Origin: Polytrichum commune
Lineage: Eukaryota; Streptophyta; Polytrichopsida; Polytrichales; Polytrichaceae
Reading direction: 5' to 3'
DNA: 64,000 nt
Assembly: GCA_950295325.1 (NCBI GenBank)
Contig: OX485807.1
Coordinates: 28,923,666-28,987,665, forward strand
A program made the position numbers and the translations under genes. Each line of letters begins with the position of its first letter. Position 1 is the stretch's first letter. Below the pieces are notes generated by a model. That model had not been told where the DNA came from. It saw only the letters and a list, made by a program, of their open reading frames with translations, and ran no database searches. Of the stretch, positions 20,805-58,340 are shown one piece after another.

Positions 20805-21107
20805 ATGCCTCAAGCTGCTGTCCTGGAGAGAAATGAAAGTCCTAACCCAAGAACATTGGACAACCTCGTTCGGAAGATATCTGGGATTCGATCACCGATT
20901 CCACATATTCCATGGGAAATCCTTGCGGCATTAACGATTCCAAGTTCATACGAGCGACCATTTGTTGATCGGGACAACCCTCTACTCCCACCTCCTACTA
21001 CAAGGCAGACTGTCATCAATTTTGCTCAGAAGACACTGGCTTATGCCCAGGGTTGTCTATCGCGACGTCATGACGATGTCGTGCCGTCATGTCAGGTCGT
21101 GTCGTGA
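20805..21107 (+). CDS. Small ORF split by the large hAT insertion, function unknown
   Basis: An ATG-started frame runs 81 codons up to the target duplication at 21040-21047 and then enters the hAT terminus, ending at TGA 21105-21107. If the 17.15-kb element and one duplication are removed, the frame continues at 38208 for 17 more codons to TGA 38259-38261, or could splice at the CAG|GTTACA junction near 38224. The predicted protein is proline-rich in its middle and has no domain I recognise. Whether it belongs to the channel-like gene remnants at 38.9-40.4 kb cannot be decided by eye. Confidence 0.35.
   Translation: MPQAAVLERNESPNPRTLDNLVRKISGIRSPIPHIPWEILAALTIPSSYERPFVDRDNPLLPPPTTRQTVINFAQKTLAYAQGCLSRRHDDVVPSCQVVS
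21040..21047. repeat. Left 8-bp target-site duplication of the large hAT
   Basis: CTTATGCC immediately precedes the left terminus and is repeated exactly at 38200-38207 after the right terminus. Confidence 0.92.
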
Positions 21108-21140
21108 CGGACCCCTCCGTCACGACACAATAGGGTCCAC
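21048..21140 (+). repeat. Left terminus of the large hAT with subterminal motifs
   Basis: The terminal 13 bases CAGGGTTGTCTAT match the other end exactly. Inside them lie repeated motifs of the type GTCGTGACGG in both orientations (for example around 21098-21110 and 21116-21127), forming a near-palindrome. Similar motifs cluster within 100 bp of the right end. In hAT elements such subterminal repeats are usually where transposase binds, so that role is inferred here. Confidence 0.85.
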
Positions 21141-21317
21141 GTAGGGTCAACATAGGGGGAATGGACTAGGGTGGGTAAAATACTTACCTTCTTGCCAAGG
21201 TGGCGTCCTATGTGGCAGAAAACGCCGACGTGGATGTGCATATTTCCCTTGCCAAGTGAACCATTTTGCCATTGTGTTTAGGGTTCTGTTAAAATCAAAG
21301 TAGAAAAATATGACTAA

Positions 21318-21965
21318 GGAGGGTGTGGGGCGGACGGTGGGGCGGACGGGAGAGGGGGGTGGTGCGGACGGCGGAGGGGGGTGGAGCGGACGGACGGGGG
21401 GTGGTGCGGGCGGGGGAGGGGGGTGGTGCGGACGAACGGGGGGTGGAGCGGACGGGGGAGGGGGGTGGAGCGGACGGGGGTGGGGCGGACGGACGGGGGT
21501 GGAGCGGACGGGGGGAACGCGGAGGGCTCCGTCCGCCCCACGTTCCCCCGCCGTGCGTTCACGTTCCCACACGTTTCCTAACGTCCGCACCCGTTCCCTA
21601 CCGCGTTCCCCCCAGTCCGCACCCGTTCCCTTCCCGTCCGCCCCGCGTTCCCTTCCCGTCCGCCCACGTTCCCTCCCGTCCGCCCCATGTTCCCTCCCGT
21701 CCGCGCTACGTTCCCCTCCCGTCCGCCCACGTTCCCTCCCGTCCGCCCCACGTTCCCTCCCGTCCGCCCCATGTTCCCTCCCGTCCGCCCCATGTTCCCT
21801 CCCGTCCGCGCTACGTTCCCCTCCCGTCCGCCTGCGTTCCCCTCCAGTCCGCCCCACGTTCCCCTCCCGTCCGCCCCATGTTCCCGTACGTTCCCTCCCG
21901 TCCGCCCAAGTTCCCCTACGTCCGCCCCCTCGTTCCCTCCGTCCGCCCCCGGGTTCCCACGTTCC
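21318..21965. repeat. GC-rich tandem array 1, upstream of the kinase-like gene
   Basis: An irregular tandem array of about 650 bp is built on a GCGGACGG(G)n monomer. Up to about 21530 the plus strand is G-rich. From about 21536 it becomes C-rich, in units such as CGTTCCCTCCCGTCCGCCCC (about 21-23 bp), so the array flips orientation in the middle. The C-rich units are the reverse complement of those in array 2. Long open frames across it in many phases are a by-product of the periodic, stop-poor sequence. It is CpG-dense in an otherwise AT-rich region and ends about 70 bp before a TATA box. Confidence 0.9.
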
Positions 21966-22032
21966 CCATACGTCCTTTTCGTGCCCCATGTCAAATCCGA
22001 CCGGGATCCCATAATGATTGTGCTCCCCTTTG

Positions 22033-22043
22033 CCTATATAAAG
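22033..22043 (+). promoter_or_regulatory. TATA box of the kinase-like gene
   Basis: CCTATATAAAG is a close match to the plant TATA consensus. It lies about 70 bp after tandem array 1 and about 225 bp before the ATG at 22267. An initiation site near 22065-22075, close to TTCCCCTCACTTTCC, is plausible. The other two main genes of the element have the same array-TATA-gene order. Confidence 0.7.
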
Positions 22044-22266
22044 CCGTGGGGTTTTAGTTCCCCTCACTTTCCTCTCCTCCCACCACAAAGGGACCCGAGA
22101 CCTTGTTGCCGTCCCAAGGACAGCGGCACCGCGCGGGTCTCAGGGGGTTTGGGAGGGCAGGGCAAATTGTGGGGAACCCTCGCAATTTTTTTTCCAGATT
22201 CACGCACTCATTTCTACATTCACTCACTCCTTTTTACATTCACTCACTCACGCGGTTTTTTTCACG

Positions 22267-24183
22267 ATGGAGGGGGAGGACATTGCTCCTTACCAAGACG
22301 AGGATACGAGGCTGCACCGTGCTTGGCTCCAAAGCACTCCACTTGCGCATACTGGAGAGGGTACGGGAAGCGAGGCCGGAAGTGGAAGCACTGCAGCACG
22401 TCCCCCACGTCCAGATCCTTTTCGGTTTGACGAAGAGTTCTTTGCAGTTGGCCATTCAGGAGGCAACCAAACACGTGGAAGCCGTGGAACACGTGGGAGT
22501 CGGGGAAACAATGGACATAGAGGGAGAACAGGAAGGGGACCAAGCTCAAGCAGTTCCACCGATATAAATGCAGCCACTCATGGAGAGTCCGTGCCACCAC
22601 GATCTCCGACACGGCGGACATCAAGACCGGAGAGCCCTGCACGTGATGTACCTCAGGGTTCGGAGCATGGTGAAAGACGGGGACAAAAACGCCCAGCAAT
22701 TTCGGAAGGGACGGAGGAGGGGTCCGGGGTTTCAGGTTCGCAATCAAGGAAAAGGAAAAATAGAGGCAAACGCGACCCGCGGATCGATGAGGCTCGAAAC
22801 CATTGTAGGGTCGTGCTGTTGGAGTGGTTTAGAAATAACAGCATGGTTTATTTGGAAAAAAAATACCTCAATGATGGTACAAAGGGGTTGGATTTGGTGA
22901 GAAACGATTTGATTCTTATTCTCACGGAAGCCACGGCTGGAGCGGAGTTTGAAGATGCTAGGGGCATGAGCGATTGGGGCACCTGGATTGAACAACAAGC
23001 CGTGGAAGCAATCTACAATCCAACAATGGCATATGATGCTGTGCATCCTAGCGAGGGAAGTAGTAGTGGCAGGAAGTCCGAGCTGTACATGAAGCTAGAG
23101 AATTGGAAAAGAGGCGTAATAGCAGCAAAAGGAACATCCGCCCGCAACCTTCCCATTTTTATTGACAGGCAGATGGCAGACAACATTGCCACTCAGGGCC
23201 GGCAGGGTGTCATATGGTTGCCTAGGAATGCGGAGATCAAAGCCTTGGATAAGGAAATCTTCCAAGGGACCTTCGGAGTGGTGCGGAGAGTCGCAATTCA
23301 TGGAGCATCATTCATCCCTAGCTGGATAGAGTGGGCTGGGAAGACCATGAAGGCCACGAATAGTTTGGAGAATCGAAAGGAACGTTCAGTTGAAGCATTG
23401 GCGTGTCCAGTAGATCATCCTGGGGTAATCAAGCTACAATACCTCAATATGAAAACATACGAATCCTATTCGATGTGATGGAATGGAGGCTCCTTGAAAA
23501 ACATGAGGATCTATGACTTCAGCGTTCCGGAAACCCACGAGCGCACAATCCTTCACATGCCTTGGGCAGACTTTGAAGCACGGAAACGGTTGGTTGTATA
23601 TCGAAGGCATCGAGCTTATTTGGCATGGGCTCTAATGTGCATTGTGGATGTAGTGCACAGGCATGACGTGTTGCACAATGACCTTAATCCCAACAATGTC
23701 ATGCTGCATTTCCCACAAGACCGTGAGAACACGGTTTACATTGGTGTGTGTGATTGGGGCATGGCATCCTGGGGAGGTGAAGACGCACCCTCCAACTATG
23801 GAAAAGATTCAGTGGATGAGATGAACAAGCACAAAACAAAATACAACTGTGCTGGTCCAGAATTATTCCATGTACGAGGGCAGCGTGGAACATCCACCTC
23901 TCTGGTGAGGATGGCTCGGAAACATAGGCACACGTTTCTATCGGAGTCCTTCTCAGTGGGTGCTTTGGCAAAGAAGATTTATGCCAGGGATGCGACTTCC
24001 CCCTTGTTTCAGCTAAACAGTGATCCAAATGGCTTGAATATGCGGTTTGAGTTAGCATTGGATTCATTGACGAAGACCAATCCAGCGGAAAGGTCAACCA
24101 TCACACACGTAGTGAACATTTTGAAGTCCCCTCCATACAACATGGTTAACCCGACAATGTGCTTCCGTGACACTGCAAAATAG
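22267..24183 (+). pseudogene. Protein-kinase-like gene carried by the hAT, one in-frame stop
   Basis: One frame runs from ATG 22267 to TAG 24183 (638 sense positions) except for a single TGA at 23476-23478 (codon 404). Residues 1-200 are low complexity and basic, with an NLS-like cluster RKRKNRGKR. The kinase-like domain follows: a glycine-loop candidate GTFGVV near 334, candidate ATP-binding Lys in AGKTMKA near 359, helix-C Glu near 376, catalytic loop HNDLNPNNVML with Asp about 472 and Asn about 477, and DWG in place of DFG with Asp about 496. The HND and DWG variants mark a divergent family, but the core Lys, Asp, Asn and Asp are kept. The TGA falls just before WNGGSL in the hinge region, where a tryptophan codon (TGG) would be natural. 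I treat it as a recently damaged gene; readthrough or a rare spliced form is not excluded. Confidence 0.8.
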
Positions 24184-25045
24184 ATTTTTTTTGTTTTTTT
24201 TGCAACAATTTTGAATCATACCAATTTTGTAACCGTTGGAGATGTAAATAAAGCCATCATTTTTTCATACAAAACTTGTATATTGTATGAGGTTTATGGA
24301 TCTTAGTGCAATGTTCATACTACTCCATGAGGCCTTTGCTCCATAATCGAGAAGAAGTCTATGGGAGGCTAACCAAGGTTCTCGCCTCTCGTGATGCCAC
24401 ATCCTTCTTTCACATCGTTGTTATCACATCCATGTGCTAAGTTCAAGTTAACTATAGTTGTTTGTGATATGTCTTGAAAAAATGCAGTTACCTATATTTA
24501 TTCTAATTTTGGTATGCCACAAAATGTAGTCAACTATAGTTATATCTAGTTAACTAAAGTTGAGCACAATATTGCAATAGTTATATCGGTTGTACACGTG
24601 ATCCAAAACATCTCTAAATGTTATCTTTCTTCTACTCCCCACATATTGCACACTATAAATGTTAAACGTGTTAACAGTTAACAAAATGGTACTCCCTTCT
24701 TTGTAAATCTGACTCTATAAACGTTAACGGATGAAATACAACCATAATATGGATGATAAAAACTACACATCCAGTTACATTGATTCATATTCACTTGTGA
24801 TTTGTAAACTTGATATTGAATAAAGTTTTGATTGGGTGTGCAATTTTATGAATGGTATTCTCTCACAAGGAATCTTCACAATTGCTTATATTTATATTTA
24901 TATAATTTACAATCACTTTTTTTTGGAAGTTTGGACATATTCTTGGCCGTCCAAGTTGAGAGGCCGTGCGATTGAGTGGCCCAACTTTGTTGATAGTCAA
25001 AAGAAATGATCTGAAAATAGCCAAGAAAATATAGTAAGGGTAGCC
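24184..25045. other. Spacer inside the hAT, no gene seen
   Basis: AT-rich sequence downstream of the kinase-like gene. TTGTAACCGTTGGAGATGTAAATAAAG just after the stop could serve as a 3-prime-processing region (AATAAA at about 24247). No ORF of note. Confidence 0.5.
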
Positions 25046-25517
25046 TTAGTTGGGCATAGTGTGAAGCCTCCAAAGGCCAAGCGCAAAGTCCAAACCTTTG
25101 GCCATGAACTCCCACGGCCTCTCGGCTTGGATGGCCAAAGTGTGAAGCCTCCAAAGGCCAATCCCAAAGTCCAAACTCAAAGGAGCATGCCACTTTATTC
25201 CTTGCTCAAAATAACCCCTCCAATCTAACGGCCAAGATCTTGTCAATGATTGATTATTTTAATGAAAAAAAAGTTCGGCCTCTCGACGGAAGTTTGGGTT
25301 GAGCATTTTGCTATACCCAATCTTTGCTCGAGAGGCCGAACTCTTGGCGCCATAACTTCCTAAAAGTGTTGCCACCTAGGCTCTTTTGGAGGCCACGTCC
25401 TTTGGACTTCGGCCTCTAGTGTGAAGGCCGAGAGGACGGACTTTGGGCATTTCAGCATTTTCATTGGTCCAAATGTTGAACCTCTCAAAGTTTGGCCATA
25501 TTGTGAACCGGCCCTTA
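25046..25517. mobile_element. Harbinger-type MITE inside the hAT (diverged copy)
   Basis: From about 25272 to 25514 this closely matches the MITE at 39367-39728, sharing blocks such as GTTCGGCCTCTCGACGGAAG and GCCACCTAGGCTCTTTTGGA. Its right end reads GTGAACCGGCCC followed by TTA at 25515-25517. The left part differs and holds two direct copies of AGTGTGAAGCCTCCAAAGGC (near 25059 and 25140). The left boundary is placed at the TTA at 25046-25048 only tentatively, because the expected GGGCCGG end is not preserved. It was presumably acquired after the hAT was formed. Confidence 0.6.
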
Positions 25518-26552
25518 TATTTGCAATACATGTCTTATTCTTTTTTTGGCACAAATTGAAAATACAACCAACCCAGCCGAAACAGCGCAGCCTAAGTGGA
25601 AATCTAGAAATAATGCTCATTTGAGGCCTATCCTTCCAAGTAGGGACTAAGTTGCTACGGGTCACAATAGGACCTTTGACCCCCCAAATCAAATCAAATT
25701 TGTTAAGAATGTCATGGTAGGCCACGTCCGGGGCTTTTTCCAAGTCCCTAAGCATCTGTTTCCATTCAATCCTCCCATACTCTGATTTGTAATACATGTC
25801 ATAAAAGCTAATGCAATTATTGTTTTGAAGTCTACCATCAAATGATATGTAAGATCGTATGTTCACTTGTGGTTGGTTCTTTTTATGTACCAGTTTAAGC
25901 CAATACTAAAATAAAATAAACCTTATTCTATAAAATCTAATGACACTACCATACAAGTTAGTAGAGATGTTGTATATTTTTTAAAATTATTCTATATATT
26001 TACATAACTACAACTTATAATTTTGTGAAGAATAATATATAATACAACAAAGTTCAAATCAATACCTCTTTTGTGCACTCACATATACTCATACGGATTT
26101 AGTATAGTGCACCCCCCCAAATGATCACTAATGTGGGCCACATTAAATTTAAGCCCACACCAAATCCCTAGTTTAATATCAATGTGGACCATATTAATTT
26201 GTTTTTCTAGAATGTTCTAATTTGTGTAAGGTGTTGGTAAGATATCTTTATGAAGCCTATAGGAACTCGGGGGATGCACTCTACATTATGTTTGAGAATC
26301 ACGTGCGTTCATGACCCCTTCTAAAAACCCCAATGTATACCATAAGTTATATGTCTAAGTAGAGATTGTGCCAACTTGAAGTAGTCCTCGCGATTTGCGA
26401 ACGTTTAACTTTCGTTGTAGGCATCGTAAAAAAAAGCAGGTGGGTTCGTTGGAAAGCTGGGAACCTAAATTCTCAAACCATGTATGGAAACACTTCTACA
26501 TGAGTGAGAGAACAAAATAATGGCACATATGTGGTAGCAATTTGGAATGACG

Positions 26553-26583
26553 TAGGGTTTAGGGTTTAGGGGTTTAGGGTTTA
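26553..26583 (+). repeat. Short interstitial telomere-like repeat (TTTAGGG)n
   Basis: About four tandem copies of the plant telomere unit, GGGTTTA with one extra G, lie directly before an 80-bp minisatellite. They may come from double-strand-break repair or from the minisatellite itself. Confidence 0.7.
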
Positions 26584-26586
26584 TGA

Positions 26587-26900
26587 ACCACAAAGGTTGA
26601 AGCACAAATATGTGAATTATCGAATGAAAGGGCAAGGGGATGCGTGTGGGTTGTAAAACCATACGAACCACTAAGGTTGAAGCTCAAATATGTGAATTGT
26701 TGAATGAAGATGGCATTCGGATGCCTAATATGCGTTGTGAAACCATATGGACCACAAAGGTTAAAGCACAAATATGTACTTTGTTGAATTAATATGACAT
26801 TCGAATGCGTGTGGGTTGTGAAACTATACGAATCACTAAGGTTGAAGCTCACATATGTGAATTGTTGAATGAAAGGACAACCCATCAAATATAGAAGCTT
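26587..26900. repeat. Minisatellite of about 80-84 bp units, about four copies
   Basis: Units start at about 26587, 26667, 26751 and 26832 with the phrase ACCACWAAGGTTGAAGC, followed by CAAATATGTGAATTGTTGAATG and ending with GTGAAACCATACGA-like sequence. Alternate units resemble each other more than neighbours do (units 2 and 4 have CACTAAGG and AAGCTC). Minus-strand frames across it encode a repeated Cys/Phe-rich peptide that I regard as a by-product. Confidence 0.8.
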
Positions 26901-27129
26901 CAAAGAGGTTTCCAATGCGGGTGTCGGGGGATTTTTTCAAAAAGTGCAACTAACTTTTTGACTTCACCAACTTTTTTTTTATTCCTATTGTGTTGTCTTT
27001 ATCCTACCAACGAGAATTGGATCCTCTACATCTTGGATTACATCAAATATTGTATATTTCATAAAGTCCTTTGAGCTCAATATATAAGTAGAGCATTTAG
27101 ACTCATATATATAACGAGGGTAGAGTATC

Positions 27130-27669
27130 ATGGATAGGATGGGAGAGAAGAGAGACATGTTTGAGGGTCTAGGATGTGATGAGGAGATAGAAAATTTAGG
27201 TGAACCCGATATTCCATTCAATCCATCAACCAAGCGTGAGAGAGATGAGAGATGTGCTAGGGATCGATTTCGTGATGAGTATGTCATGACTCTCTTCTCA
27301 CAATCTACACAAGCTTGGAGGATGAGGGCGGAGGAGGACCAACGACGATATGCGGACAACTTTGAGATCGATGCGGTGGAGAATGACAACACACAATGCG
27401 TGGGTGGAGATCTAAATGATCTGATGAATTTGTGTGCGGATATTTTGGAGAAGCCCGGGGATGTGGATGTGGAAGAGACTTCAATCGACATTGAAGATGT
27501 CAAGGTAGCGGGAGAATCTTCAAGGACTTTGCATTTTCGTAAGAAGAGGAGAGGATTATCGCCTCATCGGCTACCATTGAAGGAACGGATGAAAGACCGA
27601 ACGATTAGCTATGTTGATTTACTTCGACCGAATCCTCTCCCAAAAATGGATCCTCGACGGAAGCCATAA
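27130..27669 (+). CDS. Small charged protein encoded within the hAT, function unknown
   Basis: An ATG-started frame of 179 codons lies between the kinase-like gene and array 2. The N-terminal two thirds are rich in Asp, Glu and Arg, and the C-terminal third is basic (RKKRRG near residue 138, a possible nuclear signal). I recognise no domain. Its codons are richer in G and C than the surrounding DNA, which favours real coding, and it stands on the same strand as the kinase-like and zinc-finger genes. Unlike the three main genes it has no GC-rich array directly upstream. A minisatellite lies there instead. It could be an accessory gene of the transposon or a fragment left by another insertion. 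Confidence 0.5.
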   Translation: MDRMGEKRDMFEGLGCDEEIENLGEPDIPFNPSTKRERDERCARDRFRDEYVMTLFSQSTQAWRMRAEEDQRRYADNFEIDAVENDNTQCVGGDLNDLMNLCADILEKPGDVDVEETSIDIEDVKVAGESSRTLHFRKKRRGLSPHRLPLKERMKDRTISYVDLLRPNPLPKMDPRRKP

Positions 27670-28146
27670 GCATCTACGAGGTTGCCATGACGGAAGTCAA
27701 GTTGACGGAATGAAGTGGAATATTAAATCGTGCATGGTTTGTTCATGTATGTGATTTATAAAGGGCATTTGTACCGTCGTCGCAATAATAAAGTCATTAC
27801 TTGTACATCGTTGTCTCTATAGGGATGATAATTTGTTGGTCATCATACTATATTGGTTACTTTGTTTCTTGAGGGATCCTTCATTAGTTTTGTGTGGATA
27901 AGTACACCGGTAATGATATTTAGTGTCACATATATTATTTGCAAAGGGCCTAAGTTAGATGGGGTGCGGATGGGGGGACGCGGGAATGTGCAGTAGAAAT
28001 ATTATTGCATATTCATGTAGAGGACTTCATTACCTATCCATGGATACCAAGAAATCATTTTTTGGACTTCATATGAATTTTTGAGAGCCAAAAAACCGAG
28101 ACTATGTCTAAACTTCCAAAAACAGTTTAAAAGTGCAGATTCAAAG
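27670..28146. other. Spacer between small ORF and array 2
   Basis: AT-rich, no gene seen. AATAAAG at about 27785 could be a polyadenylation signal for the ORF ending at 27669. Confidence 0.4.
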
Positions 28147-29195
28147 GAACTCGGGAGCGGACGTATGGGAACGCTAGAGCGGACGCAGGGGAACTCTAAA
28201 ACGGATGTAGGGGAACATGGGGCGGACTTATAGGAACGTTGGAGCAGACGTAAGGAAACATGGAGCGGACGGGGGGGAGCGGAAGGGGGGGGGGCAGGTT
28301 GGAGCGGACGGGGGGAACGCGGGAGCGGACTGAGGGGAGCGGACGTAGGGAACGAGGGAGCGGACTGAGGGGAGCGGACGTAGGGAACGAGGGGGCGGAC
28401 GTTTGGGAACGGGTGCGGACGGGGGCGGAAACGGGTGCGGACTGGGGGGAACGCGGGGGGCGGACGTAGGGGAACGAGTGCGGACGGGGGCGGGAACGGG
28501 TGCGGACGGGGGCGGGAACGGGTGCGGACTGGGAGGGGAACGGGCGCGCACTGGGAGGGAACGGGCGCGCACTGGGAGGGAACGGGCGCGCACTGGGAGG
28601 GAACGGGTGCGCACTGGGAGGGAACGGGCGCGCACTGGGAGGGAACGGGCGCGCACTGGGAGGGGAACGCGGGGGGCGGACGTAGGGAACGGGTGCGGAC
28701 TGGAGGGGAACGCGGGGGGCGGACGTAGGGGAACGAGTGCGGACGGGGGCGGGAACGGGTGCGGACTGGGAGGGGAACGGGCGCGGACTGGGAGGGGAAC
28801 GGGCGCGGACTGGGAGGGGAACGGGCGCGGACGGGAGGGAACGGGTGCGGACTGGGGGGAACGCGGGGGGCGGACGTAGGGGAACGGGTGCGGACTGGCG
28901 GGGAACGGGCGCGGACTGGTAGGGAACGGGTGTGGACTGGAGGGGAACGCGGGGGGCATACGTAGGGGAACGAGTGCGGACGGGGGCGGGAACGGGCGCG
29001 GACTGGGAGGGGAATGGGCGCGGACTGGGAGGGAACGGGTGCGGACTGGAGGGGAACGCGGGGGGCGGACGTAGGGGAACGAGTGCGGACGGGGGCAGGA
29101 ACGGGTGCGGACTGGGAGGGGAACGGGCGCGGACTGGGAGGGGAACGGGTGCGGACGGGAGGGAACGGGTGCGAACAGGGTGGGAACGGGGAGCG
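28147..29195. repeat. GC-rich tandem array 2, upstream of the RING/PHD gene
   Basis: About 1.05 kb of units of 21-24 bp such as GCGGACTGGGAGGGGAACG and GCGGACGTAGGGGAACG, G-rich on the plus strand. A block at about 28540-28660 repeats a GCGCGCACTGGGAGGGAACG variant five to six times almost unchanged, a sign of recent local expansion. Multi-phase open frames through it are artefacts of periodicity. The monomer is the same as in array 1, inverted relative to that array's C-rich half. Confidence 0.92.
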
Positions 29196-29202
29196 GATGG
29201 AG

Positions 29203-29212
29203 GGGTATATAA
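29203..29212 (+). promoter_or_regulatory. TATA box of the RING/PHD-finger gene
   Basis: GGTATATAAG follows array 2 within about 10 bp. Transcription would start near 29235-29240. The ATG at 29681 lies about 470 bp downstream, so the leader is long or contains an intron. Confidence 0.7.
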
Positions 29213-29680
29213 GTGGAGGGGACCACTTACATACCCCACTCCACTCCTTGTGGGCGCCCGGACGACCCTCCTCTACTACAGAGTGCGGGGTTTAGCGGGG
29301 TGCTCGGAGGAGTTAAGGATCCCTTTTTTGGGATCCTTTTATACTTTTTTTACTGACCTGTTTGTGGGTGTGATCCACGTGGACCCGTTCCCTTGTGACG
29401 TGGCATATTGCCTTTTTGGCATATTCCTTGTGACGCGCCCAGTCAACTGGCCTCTGCGTGAGCGCTGGTAGCGGGGTGCTCGAAGGGTGTGCTGAATTTT
29501 TGTACTTTAATTTTTAACGACATTTTTGAACTAATTCCACAGCAACACTATTTTGAAGTGTATGGTTGGATGTTTTGTAGCACTATTATGAAGTGCAATT
29601 AGTAATTTAAAAATTAGAGTTCTAGATTAGAATTAGAAACTACAATTTGGGTGGATCCGGCAAGTGAAGGATTTCCAGAC

Positions 29681-31657
29681 ATGGCAAGTGGAGGATCTGG
29701 AGACATAGCAAGTGCAAGATCTGGAGACATGGCAAGTGGGGGATCAGGTTGTCACAGATCACATGTACGCAAGGCCGCTGGGTTGGAGTGGGATGTTTAT
29801 GATGACAACACCCAAAAAGCCAGGGCAGGTTGGGAGAATGTACCACAACCGTGGTCAGTGAAGACTGCAATGCAGTACGTGGGCTTCCCTCACTTTGATC
29901 AGTTGTGGCCAAGACCTTGTCACGAGCGACATTGCAAGGCCATCAGTGCGAGTTATATGCAGCTTGATGACGTGGAGGCAAAATGGAGATTCCTAACGAT
30001 ACTTAAAAGTATCTCCAATTTGGATAGATGGCCCAAGAGCGCAATTCCAAAGTCGGTGGCGTGTATGATGTATGCGGAGCACGTGTTGCGAGTTAGGGTG
30101 GATTGGTCAAGTTTGGCTACCCTGCATGGTCAAAAATTTGGGGGTATTGGAATTGCATTCACTAAATGCACAGTTCCAGATATTTCATACACTCCCGTTC
30201 CGGAGTGGTTCAGGAGGAATCCTCGACTAGTGGACGAGCCTGGGGCCCCAATTCCAAAGGGTCGGGAACCAAAAAAACCACGTAATCGTAAACGACCAGC
30301 CAATGACGTGGAGATGGCCATCGAGGAGGCGTTTGAGCATATGGATGAGGGCATGGAGGCAAATGTCGAGGTCAACAACCTGATCAACAACGTGGTTAAC
30401 GAGGTCCTAGATGAGGTAAACCTTGGTGAACATGGAGCGGACCCGACGGAGAGCAGAATGGAGGAATTGCGTAAGCAATATGCGTTGGAAATTCGTGAGT
30501 ATAAAACGATGATTTTCGAGTTGGAAAATCGAGTTGCAACACTTACGATGGGGGAGGCTAGCAGTTCAAGTAGTACACCAATTAACCATCAGTCTTTGGA
30601 AGCAGAGAGGGACGCAACTTTACAGGAGGCCAAGATTGCAAAGTCACAAGCTCTGGAGGTATGTATGAGGAATGAAGTAATGCGAGGAAAGATGGAGGCT
30701 TTGCAAAAGGAGGTGGTGGACATGCAACAACAACTTCAAGTGGTCAATGAAGTGGTTGTTGATCACGAAGCCAAGATTGGCGGACTGGAAGAGCAGAATG
30801 CAAGGTTGAAGAAATTTCTGTTGGATGCGATTGTGGAGCGCAAAAATATGAGGACAAGCACATTGCTTGCTATGGCCAAGGCTCATCAATTTGAAGCTGA
30901 GTTTGAGAGCATCCAGAAAGAATGGAACCGCAATCAGAGAATGCGGAATATGATGCTCACGTCATGGCCAGAAGATGAGCAGATGTACCCTAGTAGGTGG
31001 GATAGGGATAATGAGTGGACATTACCAAGCGGGAGCATCGATTGGCGTCAAGTGACCGACCTAGATCACCATTGGGATGTGACCCAAGTGCATGAATATC
31101 CATTCCGCATGAGGGGTGAGTTGTTATGGCCAAATCCACATACAATGGTCTTCGACGGAACCGCATGTGCGATTTGCCAATGTCCATTTGGCCCAGAGGG
31201 ATGCTATCAAGTTGGATCATGTGGGGCCCAATTCCATCCACAATGTCGAATAGAGAATATGATCAAGAAACGCCAATGTCCTCATTGCAGATCACCCTTC
31301 CACCCTCGTTTGTACCTCCAATTTGGCCTTCGGGATTACATGCGTAACGACTGGGTATTAAAGCCATGGAACTTTCCCTTCGATCTTCAAGAGTTTGATG
31401 GGGAAAATGTTGAGTGGAGTTGGTTATACAATTGTGCCAAGGTTGAGCTATGGCACGAGAACAGAGATGGCGATTGGACACGGAATGCACATCAAATTTT
31501 GTATGTTGCAGACGAGTTGTATCCCAACAAGCCCCCCGATCATGGCTTGAAAATATTTTTGTACCAAACTCTTGAATGGCATTGGGATTCAACCAGCAGA
31601 CAATTAAAGAGAGGCATCACTACAAGAGTTTATATGACCTATTTGACAAAAATGTGA
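29681..31657 (+). pseudogene. Coiled-coil RING/PHD-finger protein gene, 5-prime part, cut by CACTA insertion
   Basis: The frame from ATG 29681 stays open to TGA 31657, but only 29681-31617 is original; the last dozen codons come from the inserted CACTA terminus. The N-terminus is Gly/Ser-rich. A Trp-rich segment of unknown type follows (residues about 35-180), then a basic patch RKRP near 208, and a long coiled coil with heptad-like Leu/Met/Glu/Gln (about 256-417). A zinc finger follows: C496-x2-C499-x8-C508-x5-C514-x4-H519-x2-C522-x10-C533-x2-C536, ending CPHCRSPF. The spacing is closest to a C4HC3 PHD finger while the final CPxCR suits a RING, so an E3-ligase role is possible but unproven. 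A GTG ten codons upstream is in frame but is a poorer start. The original C-terminus lies at 32821-33181. Confidence 0.8.
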
Positions 31658-32817
31658 CGAAATTTTGTTAATTTTGGTGTCATATAGGGCACCTTGATTC
31701 GGTCATACAATTAACAGAGTTCTGTCAATTTCTTTGTCATCTGGGACAATTATACACGTAGGATTCCATTTACTCCGGCCCCCTTGCCATGTTGGATTCT
31801 CTTTACCTCGTCATTTACCCATGGTGATGTGGTTTAATGTCCAAGTTATACTAGTAAAAAAATCCTAAATTAATAATCCACCCTCGCATTCGGGGCCTAC
31901 TCACATAGGTCTAAGGGCGAAGGGCCACCTCACCTAACCTAGGCTAATGGACAAAGCCACCTACCTACCCTAGGCGAAGCCAAGGGTGAGGGGTCAAGGG
32001 GATCGAACCTTGAACCTCTTGGCTATAGTGTGAAGGCCTTAGCCACTAAGCCACCGCTCATTACATGATATAGGCCAAGTATGTAAGAGTTTTGTATGAA
32101 GAAGCCATAAGACTTATAAACTTATGTATATATATTTTTTAATTAGTGAAAGTAAAAACAAGCATAAAATTAATGTATTTACTGTTTTTAATTAGTACGT
32201 ATTGTATTTGTATTAAAAAAAATTTACAAAAATACTCCTAAACATTATTACAGTAATTATTGTAATTATTTTAACTACATTAATTACAATAATTTCAGTA
32301 TTTTACTGAAAATAGCCAATTTCAGTATATACTTAAATTAGCAATTTTCAATATTTACTTAAATTAGCAAATTTCAGTATTTACCTAAATTAGAAAATTT
32401 CAATATTTACTTAAATTAACAAATTTCAGTATTTAGTTAAATTGGTAATTTCAGTATTTACTTAAATTGGTAATTTCCCCATTTACTTAAATTGGTAATT
32501 TCAGTATTTACATTAATTAATTAAATTAGTTATTACATTAATTATAGTAAATACATTAATTATATTAATTACTTATACTAGTAATTACAATAATTAAAAA
32601 CCTTTTGTAACACCTTTTGTTGTTAATAAATATGAGACACATGCTCAGGTGAAGGGAATAAGTTAAACGTGAAATATATAAATCTGATGAGAGAAAATTG
32701 ACACAAATTTTGAATAATGTCCGAATTGACAAAAATTCATAGCTTTGAGCTGATTTTGTCACTTCGGACATTTTAGTGTCACATTTTTGTTAATTATACA
32801 CCCATTTCCTTGTAGTG
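31618..32817. mobile_element. Non-autonomous CACTA element inserted in the RING/PHD gene
   Basis: The 1,200-bp element starts CACTACAAG at 31618 and ends CTTGTAGTG at 32817. It is flanked by CAT at 31615-31617 and 32818-32820, the 3-bp duplication of CACTA (En/Spm) elements. Subterminal ACAAAAATGTGAC occurs at both ends in opposite orientation. The interior is AT-rich, with repeated TTACTTAAATTRG-like units near 32330-32500, and has no transposase. A SINE-like insertion sits within it. Confidence 0.92.
31866..32060 (-). mobile_element. tRNA-derived SINE inside the CACTA element
   Basis: On the minus strand the head begins near 32060 with TGAGCGGTGGCTTAGTGG. It has a pol III A box TGGCTTAGTGG (perfect fit to TRGYNNARNNG) and, about 35 bp on, a B box GGTTCGATCCC (one mismatch to GGTTCGANTCC). 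The head resembles the Au-type plant SINE start. The body runs through GCCTAGGGTAGGTAGGTGGC to about 31866. I could not define a clear target duplication. Confidence 0.75.
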
Positions 32818-32820
32818 CAT

Positions 32821-33181
32821 TCATCCTCCTTGGTACAATGCAGCAGGTCTCGAATCAGTATCGGAGCATGATTTGGAGGAAAATGCAGATGACATGCCTA
32901 CGGAACGGGATCCGAGATATGAATTGCAGTTAGAGGTGGGGTACCACAAGAACAGGCTGCAGTTGGCTGCAATTGATGCACTCTTGCATAGAGTTGCGGA
33001 TGATGTGGTATTGAGATGGCTAAATGGTGGGCCTAGACCACGTAATGCCGTTCCATTGTCTCATGGTAGTCGTCCATACCTCACCCGTGGAACAACGCGA
33101 AGCATGGAAGCGGGGGAATCATCACGAGCACGACGAGGATCTACTTCAGCTAGAATAGACCTCGATTCAGATTCGGATTAG
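32821..33181 (+). pseudogene. Displaced C-terminal part of the RING/PHD-finger gene
   Basis: When the CACTA element and one CAT copy are taken out, the frame of the zinc-finger gene passes from base 31617 to 32821 without a shift and stays open for 119 more codons to TAG 33179-33181, giving a predicted original protein of about 765 residues. The tail contains a Leu-rich helix (IDALLHRVADDV), a basic Ser/Arg stretch and an acidic end DLDSDSD. Alone it has no suitable ATG near its beginning. This clean in-frame join is strong evidence that the two parts were one gene. Confidence 0.85.
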
Positions 33182-33880
33182 GCATTTTTGTACCATGTTT
33201 AGGAAGTTGTATAGAAACGGATGAAGACTTTAGACACAATGAACATATTTCATGTTCAAAGTATATGTAATATAAAGAGGATTTACCGACAAGTTGTCAT
33301 TTCTAAGATCGTGTAAAAGATAACATATGGATGCCACATGTTTTAATGTTATTCGAAACTTTTAAAAACTTACTTGAATATTAGTAATTCATATGATAGT
33401 CTAACCAAAAGTACTATTGACTACAAAGTCAATATTGAATACCACATAAAAATATAATTATATAAAACGGATAGAAAGATCCTCAAAAAGAGGATGTCAC
33501 CAACGAAGCATGTACAATCGAGCAATAGGGGATTGCAATATTTATAAAAGCATATTCTTTAAGATGCTCAATAAATAAACATAAAACTCCATTCACAGTA
33601 AGAATTATACAAAATAGTAATTAATAAAGGCATAACATGTTATTGGAGATTAATTGCAATGCTAAGTTGACAATCATATTGTATTTTAAAAAATTTAAAA
33701 AACATGCAATAAAAAATTTTATTACTATAATAAAATGTTACAACTTCGAAGGTAACGTTCGCTTTGTGGTCTAAATGTCTTACCGAAGGCCCTAAGGTTG
33801 TAACTTGTATCAATTTTGACGCAAGTAATAAATTATGGGAGTACGTGGGAGCACCGAAATACCACATTTGTGCAAAACCA
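33182..33880. other. Convergent intergenic spacer inside the hAT
   Basis: AT-rich, separates the ends of the zinc-finger gene (plus) and the transposase (minus). No gene seen. AATAAA-like motifs occur on both strands (AATAAATAAA near 33570). Confidence 0.45.
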
Positions 33881-36800
33881 TTACGTTCGAATCCGTACTG
33901 TGGGATCATTTGCTTCGACACATCTTGGGTCCTCTTCAGACTCGTCTGTGTTGCAATCATCATCTGTTTGGGGAGTCGCGCTCCGAAGATGCAACTCTCG
34001 GTCACGTTGTGAGAAAATTATCTTCTTGGTCGGCCGGGAGCCCTCTGCATCCTGTATGCCATTTTCATCTAGATGTGGTCTACCCTCATCTTCATTGTAG
34101 TCTTCAGCAGTAAACGGAAGCGATCTTCCCTGATACCTCTTCCTAGTACGTTTGACACCTCTCGTAGTTCTCTGACGCCCTCCACCCGTACCACGACTTG
34201 AGTGCACTTCATCTCTACTTCCATCTATAAAAACATCCCCCGTTGTACTTCCGCCTCCAACTCCAAGGCCACATGTTCCATTGGATTGACTGTGTGGAAG
34301 TGAAACTGATGCGGATGGAATTGCAATTGGTATGTTCTCAACAACATGTCGACGAACAGAATGACGACGTGGCGCCTCTGTAGTAACATTTCTTGAAACA
34401 TTGTGTATAGCAACCAAAGTAGCACCCACCGCAGTTGCACGTGAAACACCCAATCTAGAAGTATTGGCAATACTTCGAGTGAGAGGACGACGTTGACCTT
34501 GTGCATGCACTTGCACCGTAGAGGTTGATGCAGTTCTTTGAAGAGCACGGAATCGAGTTGTAGGTATTTCAGGAACATTGGGCGTTTGATCTTCTATACG
34601 ATGGTTGGATATGAGGGAGGCGTCCATGGATTCAGAATGTACTCGGGCTGGAAATGGATCCTGTTGAACGTGCGTTGGCTCATTTGCGGGTAGTACATTG
34701 TCACCTTCACCAAAAGAAAGAGAATCGCTCCGAGGTTGCAAGGAATCTACTTCAATTCCTACATTCTCACTTGGCCCCATAGCAACATTATGGGCAGGGC
34801 GAAACCCTTGTCTAATGTGGAGAGTTTCAAAAGGCGGTCCTCCAATAGACCCCTCATGATCGTCATGCATTCCGTCGTTATGTTGGGGGACATCCGGTTC
34901 ATCAAAATCAAACACCCCAAGGTTTCCATCACTACCATTGCCATCCTCATCTTCTGAATCATGATTCTCGGAATCGAGGTCATCCAAATCAAAGTCGATG
35001 TCATCAACATTGTTGTCATCATCATTTCCGGCACTATCATTTGGATCCACGTCATCTTCGTTGTCATCTTCTTCGTCAAGGTCATCGTCAGAATGGACCT
35101 CATTCAATTCGTACCATTGCGCAGGTCTTGGGCCCCTCCGATGTCGAATGAGCCTACTATTGGTATATATGTAGACGAGGTCCTCGGCACGACTATGCTT
35201 CAAGCGATTGCGACTCTTGTTGTGAACACATGAGTACATGCTCCAATTGCGTTCACATGCGGATGCGGAACATACTTGTGCAAGGATACGTCTTGCTATT
35301 GTTTGGAGGGCTTTAGCTCCACCTCCCATTGCATCCCACCATTCATGGAGAGGTGCGGCATGCACGCTCGGGTCAGTAGAATCAGCAAAAGGCCCTCGAT
35401 TTTCAAGGAAATCTTGGTACTGGTGGAGGATTTGGACATAAGTGTCCTTATCTTGAGCAAGCCTGCGAAGAACTCGATTTAGGATTGTCCTCAAATTCTC
35501 ATCCTCATGGAGTGGGGCCCAACCACGTAGAAGCGGATTTAACATCGCTCCAGCCCAATGTAGATCATTCAACATCAACCTCCATCTATTTTGAAACGTT
35601 AGCATAGCATTTGCAGCAAGCTCAGGGCTTAAGCGAAATGGAGGTTTACTGAATCCACGAATATGGGTTTGTAAATCATGCATGACCCTCCAAGCCATTC
35701 CCATTGCAGGCGCCTTGCCATTAAATACACGAAGAGCTTTAACAACCGGGATCACCATATACAAGAAATTTTCGCACGTGTTCCAGAATCCATCAGAACG
35801 TATAAAGCTTCGCACAGCAGAGCCCTTCATGTAAGAGGTGCGAGATCTCCTCCTCATATCACGCATTAGAGTAGGCCAATCCTCATCAACCACCATTCTT
35901 TCCAAAGCATTGCGTACTTGAAGAAGACGATCTATCATGATGAAGTTCGTTGCAAAACGGGTCTCTACAGGTAGGCGGAGTGAGAGATTTGGTGACAACC
36001 TCCGGAATATAGCTTGAGAAGCATGATGGTTTTTGATAAAAACACAAATATGGCGCGCCTTTTTTACCAACTTTTTCACCCATTCCTCCTTCCCCTAATC
36101 TTCTAAGAGGAGATCTAGGCAATGCGTAGCACATCCTTGAAAATATAGATCGGGATTTGCTTGAATCAAGTCGCGAGCAGCGGAGGCCATAACTGGGGCA
36201 TTGTCGGTGCAAATCTGGACCACATTATGTCGACCAACCTTTTCCACAAATGGTTGAATTTGAGCAGCAACGTATACATGATCCTTGTGATTTCCCGTGG
36301 TATCAATGGTACCCAAGAAAACATCTCCCTTTGTGCCGCATTGGAGAACGTTTAGGAGAGGTCGGTTTTGCACGTTGTCCCATCCATCACAACATATTGT
36401 AACACCGTATTTTTCAACGGAATTCCCCATCTTCTCCTTCACTTGCCTATCTAGGTCAACCTTTTTATCAGTTAACAACTTCGTACGGATGGCATTGTAC
36501 GATGGTGGTGTGTAGGCTGGCATTCGATGACGGGCAGTTTCACGCACAGCATGAACAAATGCAGGATGTCTCACAATGTTGAAAGGAATGTTAGCTTCAT
36601 AAAAAGCCGTTGCCCATGCTCTATCAAGGAGTTGTTTTGTTGACACATTGAACCCCTCCGTTATGTTGAGTTGACGTAGTTCACGAGGAGGTGTGCCATA
36701 TATCACAACATCAGAATGTTGAGTGGATTGGGACATAAGCAAAGGCTCTGTTTCACAAATTACGGAGTCCGCTATAATAGGCTCCAGGGGTACAATATCT

Positions 36801-37078
36801 GGCACCGGAGAGTCCTCATTTACAATGCCTACATGTAAGGGCACAATGCCTCCGCAATGTTCAAACAAGACCCTAATATGCGGGGGTACCATCCTACATG
36901 TGGAAACATCACAAGCACCCCCTACAGGAGGTCTATAACCAAGGTGGGCCAACATTCTATTTCCTCGGTAAGATATGACGAACGGGCAAAACCTACATTT
37001 AACCTGCCTTTGTGATTTACCGGGAACCATCCCCTTATCCTCGTACCAATGATCCCATGCATCATTTCGGCGTGGCAT
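33881..37078 (-). pseudogene. hAT transposase (BED / DUF659 / hAT dimerisation), one in-frame stop
   Basis: The frame from ATG 37078 down to TGA 33881 covers 1,065 codons, interrupted once by TAG at 36097-36095 (codon 328). Features in order: an N-terminal BED-type zinc finger (W-x2-Y near residue 10, CRFC near 30), a DUF659-like core with CCDGWDN (Asp about 231) and ICTDNAPVM (Asp about 292), the ATHCLDLLLED motif just before the stop, and a C-terminal hAT dimerisation region (ACERNWSMYS near 607). An unusual 400-residue tail follows, with a long Asp/Glu-rich stretch and then Ser/Thr- and Arg-rich segments. The family normally continues through the stop position with LED-x-G, so the TAG replaces a sense codon. 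A TTTGCAG acceptor at about 37097 suggests an intron in the 5-prime leader. The tail is longer than in typical hAT transposases (about 600-800 aa). Confidence 0.9.
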
Positions 37079-37311
37079 GACTTCAACAAAACCTGCAAAT
37101 ACAAACAAGTTAGAGCAAGTAACTTTGATCGCATACTAGGTCCTGTTCAAGAGTGCCACAAGGGCAACCCTAATTCACAGTCACTAGATTGGACAAAGTA
37201 TCCTCTGCATTCGGGTCTCACGCATTCAATCCTCACTCCTCAAAGGAGAATCAAAAGACTTGAGACACACTATGTCAGTGGAGGCAAAAATGGCACCTTG
37301 AACCCTCAATT

Positions 37312-37320
37312 TATAGTATT
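37312..37320 (-). promoter_or_regulatory. TATA-like box of the transposase gene
   Basis: On the minus strand ACTATAAATT lies directly after array 3 and about 235 bp before the ATG at 37078. Same array-TATA-gene order as the kinase-like and zinc-finger genes. Confidence 0.6.
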
Positions 37321-37324
37321 CGAA

Positions 37325-37975
37325 TCGGACGGGGGAGCGGACGGAAGGGGGGGGGGGGGGGGGGACCGGACGGAGGGGGCGGACGGAGGGGGGGGGAGCG
37401 GACGAGGGAGCGGACGGACGGGGAGCGGACGGAGGGGGGGGGGGGACCGGACGGAGGGGGCGGACGGAGGGGGGGGAGCGGACGAGGGAGCGGACGGACG
37501 GGGGGGAACGGACGGGGGGAGCGGACGGACGGGGGGGAGCGGACGGACGGGGGGGAGCGGACGGGGGAGCGGACGAAGGGGGGGGGGAGCGGACGGGGAA
37601 GCGGACGGAGGGGGGGGGGGGAGCGGACAAGGGAGCGGACGGACGGGGGGGAGCGGACGGACGGGGGGGGGGGGGGGGGACGGGGGAACGGACGGGGGAG
37701 CGGACGGGGGTGGGGCGGACGGAGGGGGGTGGAGCGGATGGGGGTGGGGGGGGGGGCGGACGGGGGAGTGGACGGACGGGGGGGGGGGCGGACGGGGATT
37801 GTGAACGGGAGTGGACGGACGGGGGGGGGGGGGGGGGCGGACGGGGATTGTGAACGGGAGCGGACGGGGGGGAACGGGGGCAAACGGGGATTGTGAACGG
37901 GAGCGGACGGGGGGGAACGGGGGCGAACGGGGGTTGGGAACGGAGGCGGACGGGGGGGCGGACGGGCTCTAGTAA
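37325..37975. repeat. GC-rich tandem array 3, upstream of the transposase gene
   Basis: About 650 bp of GCGGACGG monomers with long G tracts (up to about 15) on the plus strand, hence C-rich in the transposase sense. Higher-order repetition is visible: the segment starting near 37368 (GACCGGACGGAGGGGGCGGACG) recurs near 37446, and near 37790-37910 a unit with GGGGATTGTGAACGGGAG recurs three times. Core monomer shared with arrays 1 and 2. Confidence 0.92.
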
Positions 37976-38089
37976 ATTTTTCCCCACTTTACCTTTACTT
38001 TGCTAACATGTCATCACACGTGGACATTGTAAATCCTACATATCAGAAATGGGTTAATGTAATTACACAAAAAAATCGGTAAAATTCAA

Positions 38090-38199
38090 GTCCGTCAGGA
38101 TAAAGACAACATCTGGCATAATGTCGTGACGGATACGTGTCGTGACGGCACGACATTATGTCGGGATTACCCTCCGTCACGACACAATAGACAACCCTG
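38090..38199 (-). repeat. Right terminus of the large hAT with subterminal motifs
   Basis: Reading inward on the minus strand the end starts CAGGGTTGTCTAT, identical to the left end. Inside are four or more copies of TCGTGACGG or its complement, for example CCGTCACGACACAATAG at 38174-38190, which also occurs at the left end. Confidence 0.88.
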
Positions 38200-38207
38200 C
38201 TTATGCC
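38200..38207. repeat. Right 8-bp target-site duplication of the large hAT
   Basis: CTTATGCC, identical to 21040-21047. Confidence 0.92.
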
Positions 38208-41288: not shown

Positions 41289-43136
41289 CTAGGTTAAGGT
41301 TTTTTGTTTACCTCTCTTGTTAATATTTTTAGATGTATTCTTTCTCTTCTTTGTTGTTGCTCCATGTACAAATGATGATGTTGGTGCTTCAACATTTGCA
41401 TCCAAGCATTCTTCAACCACATTTATGAGTGGTATGGTTGGATCAGAAACATCTTCTTCTTCAACATTCTCCTCCAAGTCATGGTTCACGGTAAAGAGAG
41501 GAGATTCAGCATTCACCTCCATTGCCTTCAATTGGAATGTAGGTAAGAAAACTCTTTCAAACCCACATTTTTGCCATCCTTTCTGTATCATAGCTTCCAT
41601 CTTTTTGACTTGTGCCCAAGCTGAGAACAACCATGCAGGGATGCGTGGTTTCAAGTTACTCATACTTAGATCAACTTCAAGTTCTCCATTGGCTTCAATT
41701 TGTAATTTCACCTCTGTTGCTATCCAATTGTAAAATTCTAACTTAAGTGCATGCTTAAATGGCCTTTGCAAAATGACATCAGTTGGCTGTAGCTTAGAAG
41801 TACAATTGGCAAGAACAAATATCACTAGGATATTTGCATGCTTGGATTTAATCTAATTCAAAAATTTTGAACTTTTGTGCACAAACCATGAGTCAATCAA
41901 CCATATTAAGTTCTAGTCTTTTGGAAGATTGTGCAAGGCAATCTTGGAAGCCAACTAGGGCTCTAAAATCTCTTCAATAAATTGTTGAGAGGTATGGAGT
42001 GTACTCCAATGATTTGGAGAAAAGGTAAAGTGCCATCCTCCCTCCATGCATTTAATATTTTTATCACGTTGTTTTGATAAGCATCTTATTATTTTCCATG
42101 TGAATATTGCTTGAGTTGGCAAAAATTCTCCACTAGTACTAAAGAAGATAACACATGTGATCTGCCTTTTGTTCTCCATGCCTAAATTTTTGATATTTTT
42201 TGTACTTTTTGCATCCCATGATTTGCCCCTTGCTGCAGGTACCAAATGGATATCCGTTTGGTCTGAATTGACTACAAGAGATGATGGGATGCCATAAAAT
42301 TTAGCAAAGTAAGCTACCCTGTAATTCATATTAAGTCCTTGCTCCATCCAATCTAATGGTAATTTACTTGCAGCAGTAATATTTTTCTTAATTATCCAAT
42401 TCATGTAAACTTTCATGAATTCATTTGTTCATTGTCTTGACATTGTGAAACCTTCAGGTCTATCATCAAGAAGTTGAGGAACAAGAGCCTTAAGCATTCC
42501 TCTAAGAATGGGTTGTACAATGGAAATGATGAGAATTTGTCCAATTTCTCTCATTTTTTGCAACTTGGATACAAGTTGATCACGAACATGGGGGAAAATT
42601 CTCTAAAATTGGCAAATGTTGATTTTGTTTTTTGGGTGATGTCCTAGGTTTGCTGCTTCCTTGTAATTAGCTTGTATTTCTTCTTTTTCATCAAACCAGT
42701 CATACAAGCTTGATTTTCCTAGTTTTTTGTAAGGACTAGGACCTCCATGTGTTCTAAAAGCAATTTCCAAGTAGTGAATTGCAGTTTGTGTCTTTCCATA
42801 CCTCTTAACTGCCTCTTGAATTGGTGGAAAGAGGTCTGTGATGTACCACATGTTGTATGAATGTCTTTTCTTTTGTAAATGTTGAGATTTCTTCCTCCTT
42901 GCATCTTGCTGCTCCTCCTCTTGTTTGATTGTGCTTGGGCATATAAGCATGGTGTTTTTTCTTGGGTGTCCAACTTGGCGCTTCTCTACAATTTCTCTTT
43001 GAATCTCCCTCTCAACTGCAACTATGGCTTTTAATTGATTAAATTCTTTTGCAACAACACACTCTCTCTCTCCTCATGAGAGATCTTAGTAAACATAGAA
43101 GTCAACATAGTTTGTTTCTTCTTACCAAGCGTCATT
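41289..43136 (-). pseudogene. Decayed pogo-like (DDE) transposase
   Basis: Read on the minus strand from an ATG near 43136, pieces in order are: a Lys-rich start, a helix-turn-helix-like part (IQEAVKRYGKTQTAIHYLE), then the DDE core with VVNSDQTDIHLVPAARGKSW (first Asp, about 42265), a second block LIWLIDSWFVHKS (about 41900) and NCTSKLQPTDVILQRPFKHA (third catalytic Asp, about 41780). This order and wording fit pogo/Tigger-type plant transposases. At least one frameshift near 43060 and stops near 42600, 42420, 41960, 41915 and 41850 disable it. Terminal inverted repeats were not found by eye. Confidence 0.75.
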
Positions 43137-57680: not shown

Positions 57681-58340
57681 TTTATTGCTTTGCAGCTCCA
57701 GTTGCAGAGGATCAAATGTCACGGAGACATATAGAGAGGAGTTCTGATTGAAGTTCTGCAGGATCTGTTCGACTAAAGACGATCGTAGTTGGTGCCTTGC
57801 AAATCCACACGAGGTTACTGTCAGACAGTGCGTTTACACACAACCACCGTTTGTGTGGTTGATGGTTGCAGTTTACTTCATTGGAACTTAATTTGGTTGT
57901 ATTTTTGAGGTACAATGATAACGATAGAGAAGGTGCATTGATGACAACTACAACCACAACTCCTCTTACTTGCCCGATTACGATATCAGATGTACTTGGG
58001 AGTATGTCCAACAGTAATTATGTGTAAATAATAAGAAATCGTGGTTGTGGTTGAAGGTAGCAGTAGTAGACACTCAATACCAATTACAGCAGAATTTTCA
58101 GACTTCCAGGAGGAAGCTCAAAGGTCACTAGTACAGCTTAACCCTTTAAAGGCCAAGAAAGCCTCTGATCCGATGGCTTGTCGATCGAGAGTGGAGTGTT
58201 ATGACGTCTGAACAATTCTACGATTTAAGCTCTGCGGTGTTGCCTTATGAACGCTAACAATTGAATTGTAATCGGAGTGACGTGCTCTTAGATCAGGGTG
58301 AAGGGACGAATATCTTGAGAAGCTCGACACTGTGACGGCG

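Follow-up and report, generated by a model that had tools for sequence, protein, structure and literature searches.

A multi-gene hAT transposon family with putative helper genes in Polytrichum commune

The stretch of DNA analysed here (the window; 64,000 nucleotides of Polytrichum commune contig OX485807.1, assembly GCA_950295325.1) carries a 17,152-bp hAT transposon at window positions 21048-38199 (+). The evidence as a whole makes it probable that this element is a defective member of a multi-gene hAT family, apparently a recent one, with candidate helper genes. Besides the hAT transposase gene (T), it holds a kinase-like gene (K), a gene for a coiled-coil RING-like protein (R) and a small charged gene (S). 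Sequence comparisons indicate a real multi-copy family with two accessory genes under selection, the functions of the accessory genes being putative. Because the gene set recurs across subfamilies and K and R appear to be held by purifying selection, these comparisons argue for a multi-gene hAT family and against chance capture.

The window copy and its boundaries

Ends, duplication and an empty site identify the element as one insertion, and its ends find matches genome-wide. A perfect 8-bp target-site duplication, CTTATGCC, flanks it on the left (21040-21047) and on the right (38200-38207). The 13-bp terminal inverted repeat CAGGGTTGTCTAT at 21048-21060 (+), which other elements share at their ends, is mirrored by its perfect reverse complement ATAGACAACCCTG at 38187-38199 (+); the short inverted ends of hAT elements begin CAGGG. 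Near each end, the window copy and all four other copies tested (A2, B1, C1 and D1, of the types described below) have a single 17-bp subterminal motif, CCGTCACGACACAATAG, which points the same way at both ends. With 407 bp of the left flank as query, we located a paralogous site at genome position C5:17,893,411, from which 1 kb was taken. Over 990 bp this site is 96% identical to the two flanks joined together; it holds CTTATGCC once and no element. The empty site attests the insertion; that the encoded enzyme moved the element is what we infer from sequence. Chance as the source of the ends and the duplication is excluded, because perfect 8-bp duplications, each of them different, flank 19 of 20 further elements that share the ends. 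All 20 elements taken, two of which are ~1-kb derivatives, have the 13-bp sequence at either end with no more than two substitutions; the check left out C1:27.61, C5:25.16, C5:42.48 and C6:36.41 Mb, where both ends were listed in one orientation. A sequence-only reading of the window had described a 17.15-kb unit with identical 13-bp ends, shared subterminal motifs, a perfect 8-bp duplication and a hAT transposase, and had proposed a search for empty sites and for further copies in which the same ends enclose the same gene set and the 8-bp duplications differ. The unit is borne out by the sequence, by Pfam and by the empty site, and both the further copies and the empty site, a paralogous one, were found.

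The window copy is defective, with K and T stopped and R split. K lies at 22042-24183 (+; first in-frame Met at 22267; Pkinase profile match) and has a stop at 23476-23478, where other copies are open. T occupies 33881-37135 (−; first in-frame Met at 37078; Dimer_Tnp_hAT and DUF659) and has a stop at 36095-36097, again at a point where other copies are open. R, read in the window as an open reading frame (ORF) at 29618-31657 (+), comprises an N-terminal and RING part at 29618-31617 (+; zf-RING_2 and RNF38 RING matches, structure model) and a C-terminal part at 32818-33181 (+), separated by a nested CACTA-like insert of 1,200 bp at 31618-32817. The insert has the ends CACTACAAG...CTTGTAGTG and a 3-bp duplication, CAT, at 31615-31617 and 32818-32820; it matched none of the other element copies fetched, and R runs uninterrupted across the insertion point in A1, A2 and B2. 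What looks like a separate ORF at 32816-33181 is actually the C-terminus of R, continuous with the remainder of the gene in other copies. Without the insert, which itself holds internal AT-rich tandem repeats, the window copy would measure ~15.95 kb. The fourth gene, S, encodes 181 aa at 27124-27669 (+; first in-frame Met at 27130). The kinase, coiled-coil RING and small charged ORFs are thus present inside the element as the sequence-only reading had described them; that K, T and R are broken in this copy had gone unnoticed. T would carry out ordinary hAT cut-and-paste transposition. The window copy, if mobile at all, would need the proteins of other copies, and would have been moved by T from intact ones.

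An 84-bp minisatellite lies upstream of S (26585-26874), and related repeats are also found upstream of S in C1 and D1. Directly before the minisatellite stands a short interstitial TAGGGTT run (26553-26583), presumably a plant-telomere-like repeat.

A multi-copy family with a recurrent gene set

The host genome searched comprises 408 Mb in 64 contigs. The left end (254 bp) has at least 40 matches at 99-100% identity (best 40 of 605 candidates), and the right end at least 40 at 97-100% (best 40 of 595 candidates). At least 61 matches to T were found at 94-100%, and in 34 of these 61 the frame stays open for 1079 aa or more and the match holds no stop (among the matches listed). K is present in at least 89 genome places (best 89 of 300 candidates), R in at least 65 and S in more than 100, the last at 66-100% identity and many beside T. 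A family search with DUF659 returned 132 matches in 138 candidates, and the 100 scoring at least 108 bits were used to count linkage. Among the matches listed, one or more of K, S and R lie within 20 kb of 87 of these 100 sites, and all three of 40; the corresponding figures for random genome points are 1.3 and 0.3 per 100. Given 87 of 100 DUF659 sites versus 1.3 per 100 random points, K, S and R travel with the element. Viewed from the accessory genes, a family DUF659 site (at least 108 bits) is no more than 25 kb away for 68 of 89 K places, 59 of 65 R places and 88 of 120 S places. R, S and K all stand on the expected side of T in 32 of the 61 T matches, and in 13 both ends are in place as well (among the matches listed). 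Misses in these counts do not equal absence, since only best-scoring candidates were counted. The linkage input consisted of 40/40 left ends, 40/40 right ends, 61/61 T, 89/90 K and 65/70 R rows, second pieces of one match being dropped; for S, 103 rows were used after dropping those at 50-55% identity and some partial ones, and 17 were added back for the DUF659 count. Copies of K, R and S may also exist as host genes outside elements; the genome search scored best candidates only.

The gene set is stable while order and orientation change, since subfamilies A, B and C carry the same four genes in different arrangements. Subfamily A, the window type, reads K+ S+ R+ T−; subfamily B reads K− S+ R+ T−, with the duplication GTAGGGTT on both sides of B1; and subfamily C reads R+ T− S+ K−, with the same kind of ends and, in C1, the duplication CCTGCGAG/CCTGTGAG. 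The full copies examined measure 15-18 kb. Complete frames occur in several copies for K (708-710 aa) and R (788 aa), and in many for T (1084 aa); at all C loci examined, K or R is interrupted by a stop. A fourth type, D1 (4.46 kb; duplication GTTGTGGC), retains S only of the four genes, and derivatives of ~0.8-1.1 kb with the same ends are found at C2:24.19 Mb, C4:38.88 Mb and C5:42.48 Mb, the first two with perfect 8-bp duplications. Downstream of K, 279 bp (window 24668-24946 versus L061 5392-5670) are 95% identical between subfamilies A and C, while the K gene itself is 88% identical; regulatory constraint or recombination may account for this.

GC-rich tandem arrays fill most of the gaps between genes and ends in subfamilies A, B and C, with none between R and T. 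In the window they comprise GCGGACGG-type units between the left end and K (21330-21958) and GCGGAC-type units between S and R (28154-29197) and between T and the right end (37326-37966). Each A copy has three arrays and each of two B copies has four; C1 has C-rich arrays in four gaps, and similar clusters are present in C2. The array unit differs between subfamilies, from GCGGACGG to GTCGGACGG. In the stretches fetched, some of which are not exact elements, five A/B copies have 66-126 occurrences of GCGGAC and 0-1 of GTCGGAC, against 8-10 and 13 in two C copies; the 46.8 kb of window flanks contain two GCGGAC.

In estimating selection, we used codons fixed within groups and counted changes by the Nei-Gojobori method, with p values from Fisher tests; codons at which A or B copies disagreed, codons without a majority among C copies and stops were dropped. 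Decaying copies push the resulting ratios of nonsynonymous to synonymous divergence (dN/dS) towards 1. Between A and C, dN/dS was 0.44 for T (p 4e-6), 0.56 for R (p 2e-4), 0.61 for K (p 0.0015) and 0.89 for S (p 0.8), and the kinase domain alone gave 0.44 (p 0.004). The comparison of B with C gave 0.42 for T, 0.53 for R, 0.58 for K and 0.71 for S; A with B gave 0.32 for T (p 6e-4), 0.48 for K (p 0.029), 0.43 for R (p 0.051) and 0.89 for S (p 0.8). By region, low ratios were found in the T core (0.30, p 1e-5) and the long acidic C-terminal region of T (0.44, p 0.001), and in the N-terminal part (0.38, p 0.003) and coil (0.45, p 0.009) of R. Pairwise values were noisier (K 0.45-1.03; four close T pairs 1.38-1.54). 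The fixed-codon ratios indicate that K and R are under purifying selection between subfamilies.

S also occurs outside the hAT family. Among the matches listed, 29 S rows stand at ~50-55% identity, and the two that were read, L063 and L064, belong to a second repeat family, with S on the opposite strand to a transposase-like ORF (L063 4190-8157; L064 1631-5582). Twelve of the 29 rows lie 1.9-3.4 kb from an ORF of this second family and the other 17 are without one (29 S rows against 44 of 148 second-family ORF rows, within 6 kb; the remaining 104, compared by eye, added none). The ORF is abundant, at no fewer than 148 places (best 148 of 1715 candidates), and has no convincing Pfam match; we take its DGTY...D...CxxH pattern to recall Mutator-like transposases. 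No K, R or T match lies within ~5 kb in L063 or L064. Against the second family, S gives dN/dS of 0.35-0.46 in five comparisons (S of A1, C6 and D1; p at most 3e-4; A1 alone 0.44-0.46), and because of these values S appears to be constrained over this longer time. S may have moved between the two families.

Candidate roles of the accessory proteins

T matches the hAT dimerisation model in Pfam (Dimer_Tnp_hAT, PF05699; E 3.5e-10), its 40 bits lying above the cut-off of 21.4, and DUF659 at E 2.3e-30; zf-BED matches weakly, at E 0.16. T contains the motifs CCDGWDN, CTDNAPVM and CERNWS, candidates for hAT BED/DDE residues. In K, a glycine loop, a Lys, HND..N and DWG, presumably the catalytic motifs of a kinase, are kept in most copies when ten from A, B and C are compared, with isolated losses such as DWG to NWG in B1. 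K has weak general kinase matches among PDB sequences and, in NCBIfam, weak matches to kinase-bearing proteins (lanthionine synthetases, PknD); the other five proteins submitted with it to NCBIfam had no match. R matches the RNF38 RING (E 2.2e-5), with a RING-like finger at about aa 516-558, and a low-confidence model suggests long, coiled-coil-like helices at about aa 229-448. S has no Pfam match; its N-terminus and its C-terminus each hold a conserved block.

We tentatively propose that K, R and S are the element's helper proteins, which would modify host or element proteins. Such modification would most likely keep the element expressed despite host silencing, and the GC-rich arrays between the genes are possible cis targets, as in VANDAL/VANC. 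A more elaborate scenario is rather doubtful: the four-gene hAT lineage would have built a counter-silencing system from a kinase and a RING protein, helped by S as a small adaptor, acting at its own arrays; the differences in array unit between subfamilies would resemble the outcome of an arms race, and S would have passed between the hAT family and another repeat family with a different transposase-like gene.

Several observations weigh against this interpretation or against parts of the family's description. The roles of K, R and S are ones that we infer from sequence. The Pkinase match of K (E 4.8e-6 in the window; E 3.5e-6 and 27.0 bits in an open copy) falls below the Pfam gathering score of 31.7, and the zf-RING_2 match of R (E 2.3e-4, 21.8 bits) below that of 27.3; one expected RING ligand in R is an Ala, where the C-x-H of RNF38 has histidine. 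AlphaFold models are uninformative as folds, with a mean pLDDT (predicted local distance difference test) of 37.5 for K (aa 240-710 of an open copy, 5 rows) and 36.0 for R (window ORF, 3 rows). Constraint is uneven: S is without significant constraint inside the hAT family (dN/dS 0.71-0.89, p 0.33-0.8), the first 160 codons of T give 2.11 (p 0.26) and the middle part of K 1.47 between A and B (p 1), and R gives 0.53 in its RING region (p 0.051) and 0.55 at its C-terminus (p 0.11). One of the 20 elements taken, at C3:38.01 Mb, has no matching duplication, and 13 of the 100 DUF659 sites have none of K, S and R within 20 kb (among the matches listed). The GC-rich arrays may be plain minisatellites. 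Finally, synonymous divergence (dS) between A and C is unequal, at 0.055 for S, 0.092 for T, 0.166 for K and 0.193 for R. Because dS differs by gene and identity along S is a mosaic between A, B and C, it must be assumed that the lineages are mosaics formed by recombination between them, or that the genes have different histories. The unequal dS values would also be in line with K and R having been captured independently by each subfamily from host paralogues, which is possible.

The main alternative to the silencing step is regulation of the transposase or of host DNA repair: K would phosphorylate T or its partners, R would ubiquitylate T or host repair factors, and S would be an adaptor, with no role in silencing. 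Protein-modifying enzyme folds suit such a scheme, as does the constraint on the acidic C-terminal region of T, and yet we consider it somewhat unlikely. K and R are tied to T by linkage alone, and the intergenic arrays, together with an S homologue in a second repeat family that has no T, K or R match nearby, point to a more general role.

Chance capture of kinase, RING and S genes from the host, through transduplication or as a Pack-type element, with the hAT doing no more than copying them, is improbable. Stops in K or R are found in many copies, including K of the window copy and all the C loci examined, and gene fragments captured by DNA transposons are described in the review consulted in part (PMC13317346). 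Against this stand a full set kept across three subfamilies with different gene orders, purifying selection on group-fixed codons of K and R, and complete K, R and T frames in several copies.

Large mobile DNA commonly carries kinase and RING genes, and the size and gene number of the element resemble those of giant elements. It is nonetheless highly improbable that hAT ends took over a larger mobile unit, virus-like or a giant transposon, of which the four genes are the remains: a Pfam scan of ten window ORFs gave no polymerase, capsid, integrase or protease domain, and the hAT dimerisation domain of T scores above its curated cut-off. An assembly artefact, or two solo ends that happen to enclose unrelated neighbouring genes, is refuted by the full structure at many loci, the matching duplications and the empty site, and no point in its favour was found.

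Should K, R and S be helper proteins as proposed, their retention by a multi-copy hAT through subfamily splits and reshuffling suggests that such elements can evolve, and maintain, their own programme for dealing with the host cell. The family offers a concrete system for asking whether transposons use phosphorylation or ubiquitylation against silencing, with the arrays as a candidate cis target. It also carries a warning for annotation, as K and R genes could be miscounted as host genes.

Window neighbours and known systems

Elsewhere in the window, a host gene for an RNA-dependent RNA polymerase, a silencing-pathway gene, lies at 58302-62980 (+), ~20 kb from the element (RRM_1 7e-7; RdRP 8.5e-87 and 2e-45). 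ORFs at 41289-43073 (−) resemble a pogo/Tigger-type transposase, with a weak DDE_1 match (E 0.0075) in one of two scanned.

Ordinary hAT elements are a few kilobases long and encode a transposase only, and serve as textbook minimal transposons of one enzyme and two ends. The family described here resembles the hAT superfamily (Ac, Tam3) in its 8-bp duplications, short inverted ends, DUF659 and Dimer_Tnp_hAT domains and repeated subterminal motif; it differs in the 15-18-kb length of the full copies examined and in its three further recurrent genes. The sequence-only reading had called such an element unusual and perhaps undescribed. No hAT with kinase or RING genes was found among the open-access papers listed, judged mostly from titles and the starts of abstracts, and the set of kinase, RING and S genes was likewise unreported there; the claim holds less well for accessory genes as such, which have precedent in DNA transposons, hATs included, most closely in the fungal hAT7 and IS3EU elements (PMC12730594). 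The papers cited here were consulted in part, and the statements drawn from them refer to those parts. The terms hAT and kinase do not occur in the main text of a review from 2026 on how plant transposons capture genes (PMC13317346). In brown algae, giant KDZ, EnSpm and Sola elements are described, many with additional genes (PMC12477816).

ToxhAT/ToxTA, a 14-kb fungal element once filed as a hAT, is similarly large and multi-gene. Its duplications are TA (2 bp) and its authors reassign it to Tc1/Mariner, and it was therefore dropped as a hAT precedent (PMC12506042). Fungal IS3EU elements carry an alpha-kinase gene opposite in orientation to the transposase and make 6-bp duplications (PMC12730594). 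They share with the present family a kinase gene inside a DNA transposon, opposite the transposase; they belong to another superfamily, and their kinase is an alpha-kinase, while K is a weak Pkinase match with no alpha-kinase model matching up to E 1. Closer in superfamily are the fungal hAT7 elements, which carry a TET/JBP dioxygenase gene thought to counter silencing and make 7-bp duplications (PMC12730594). They too are hATs with an accessory gene, and the TET/JBP gene moves between transposon superfamilies (PMC12730594), as S may have done here. They differ in their fungal hosts, in having 7-bp rather than 8-bp duplications and in carrying one DNA-modifying enzyme, with no mention of a kinase, RING and S set in the part of the source consulted. 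The window element was considered as a hAT7 and set aside, having 8-bp duplications and no TET/JBP match among the ten window ORFs scanned with Pfam.

For the arrays, a counterpart is found in Arabidopsis VANDAL elements, in which the targets of VANC are rapidly diverging tandem repeats and anti-silencing by VANC has been demonstrated (PMC10398659, PMC13317346). VANDALs belong to the Mutator superfamily, and the window element, with its hAT transposase, is not a VANDAL Mutator-like element; anti-silencing is shown there and proposed here, and the two are likened by description rather than by comparison with VANC sequences. The likeness of the arrays to VANDAL repeats is suggestive only. Both are multi-gene plant DNA transposons with rapidly diverging tandem noncoding repeats.

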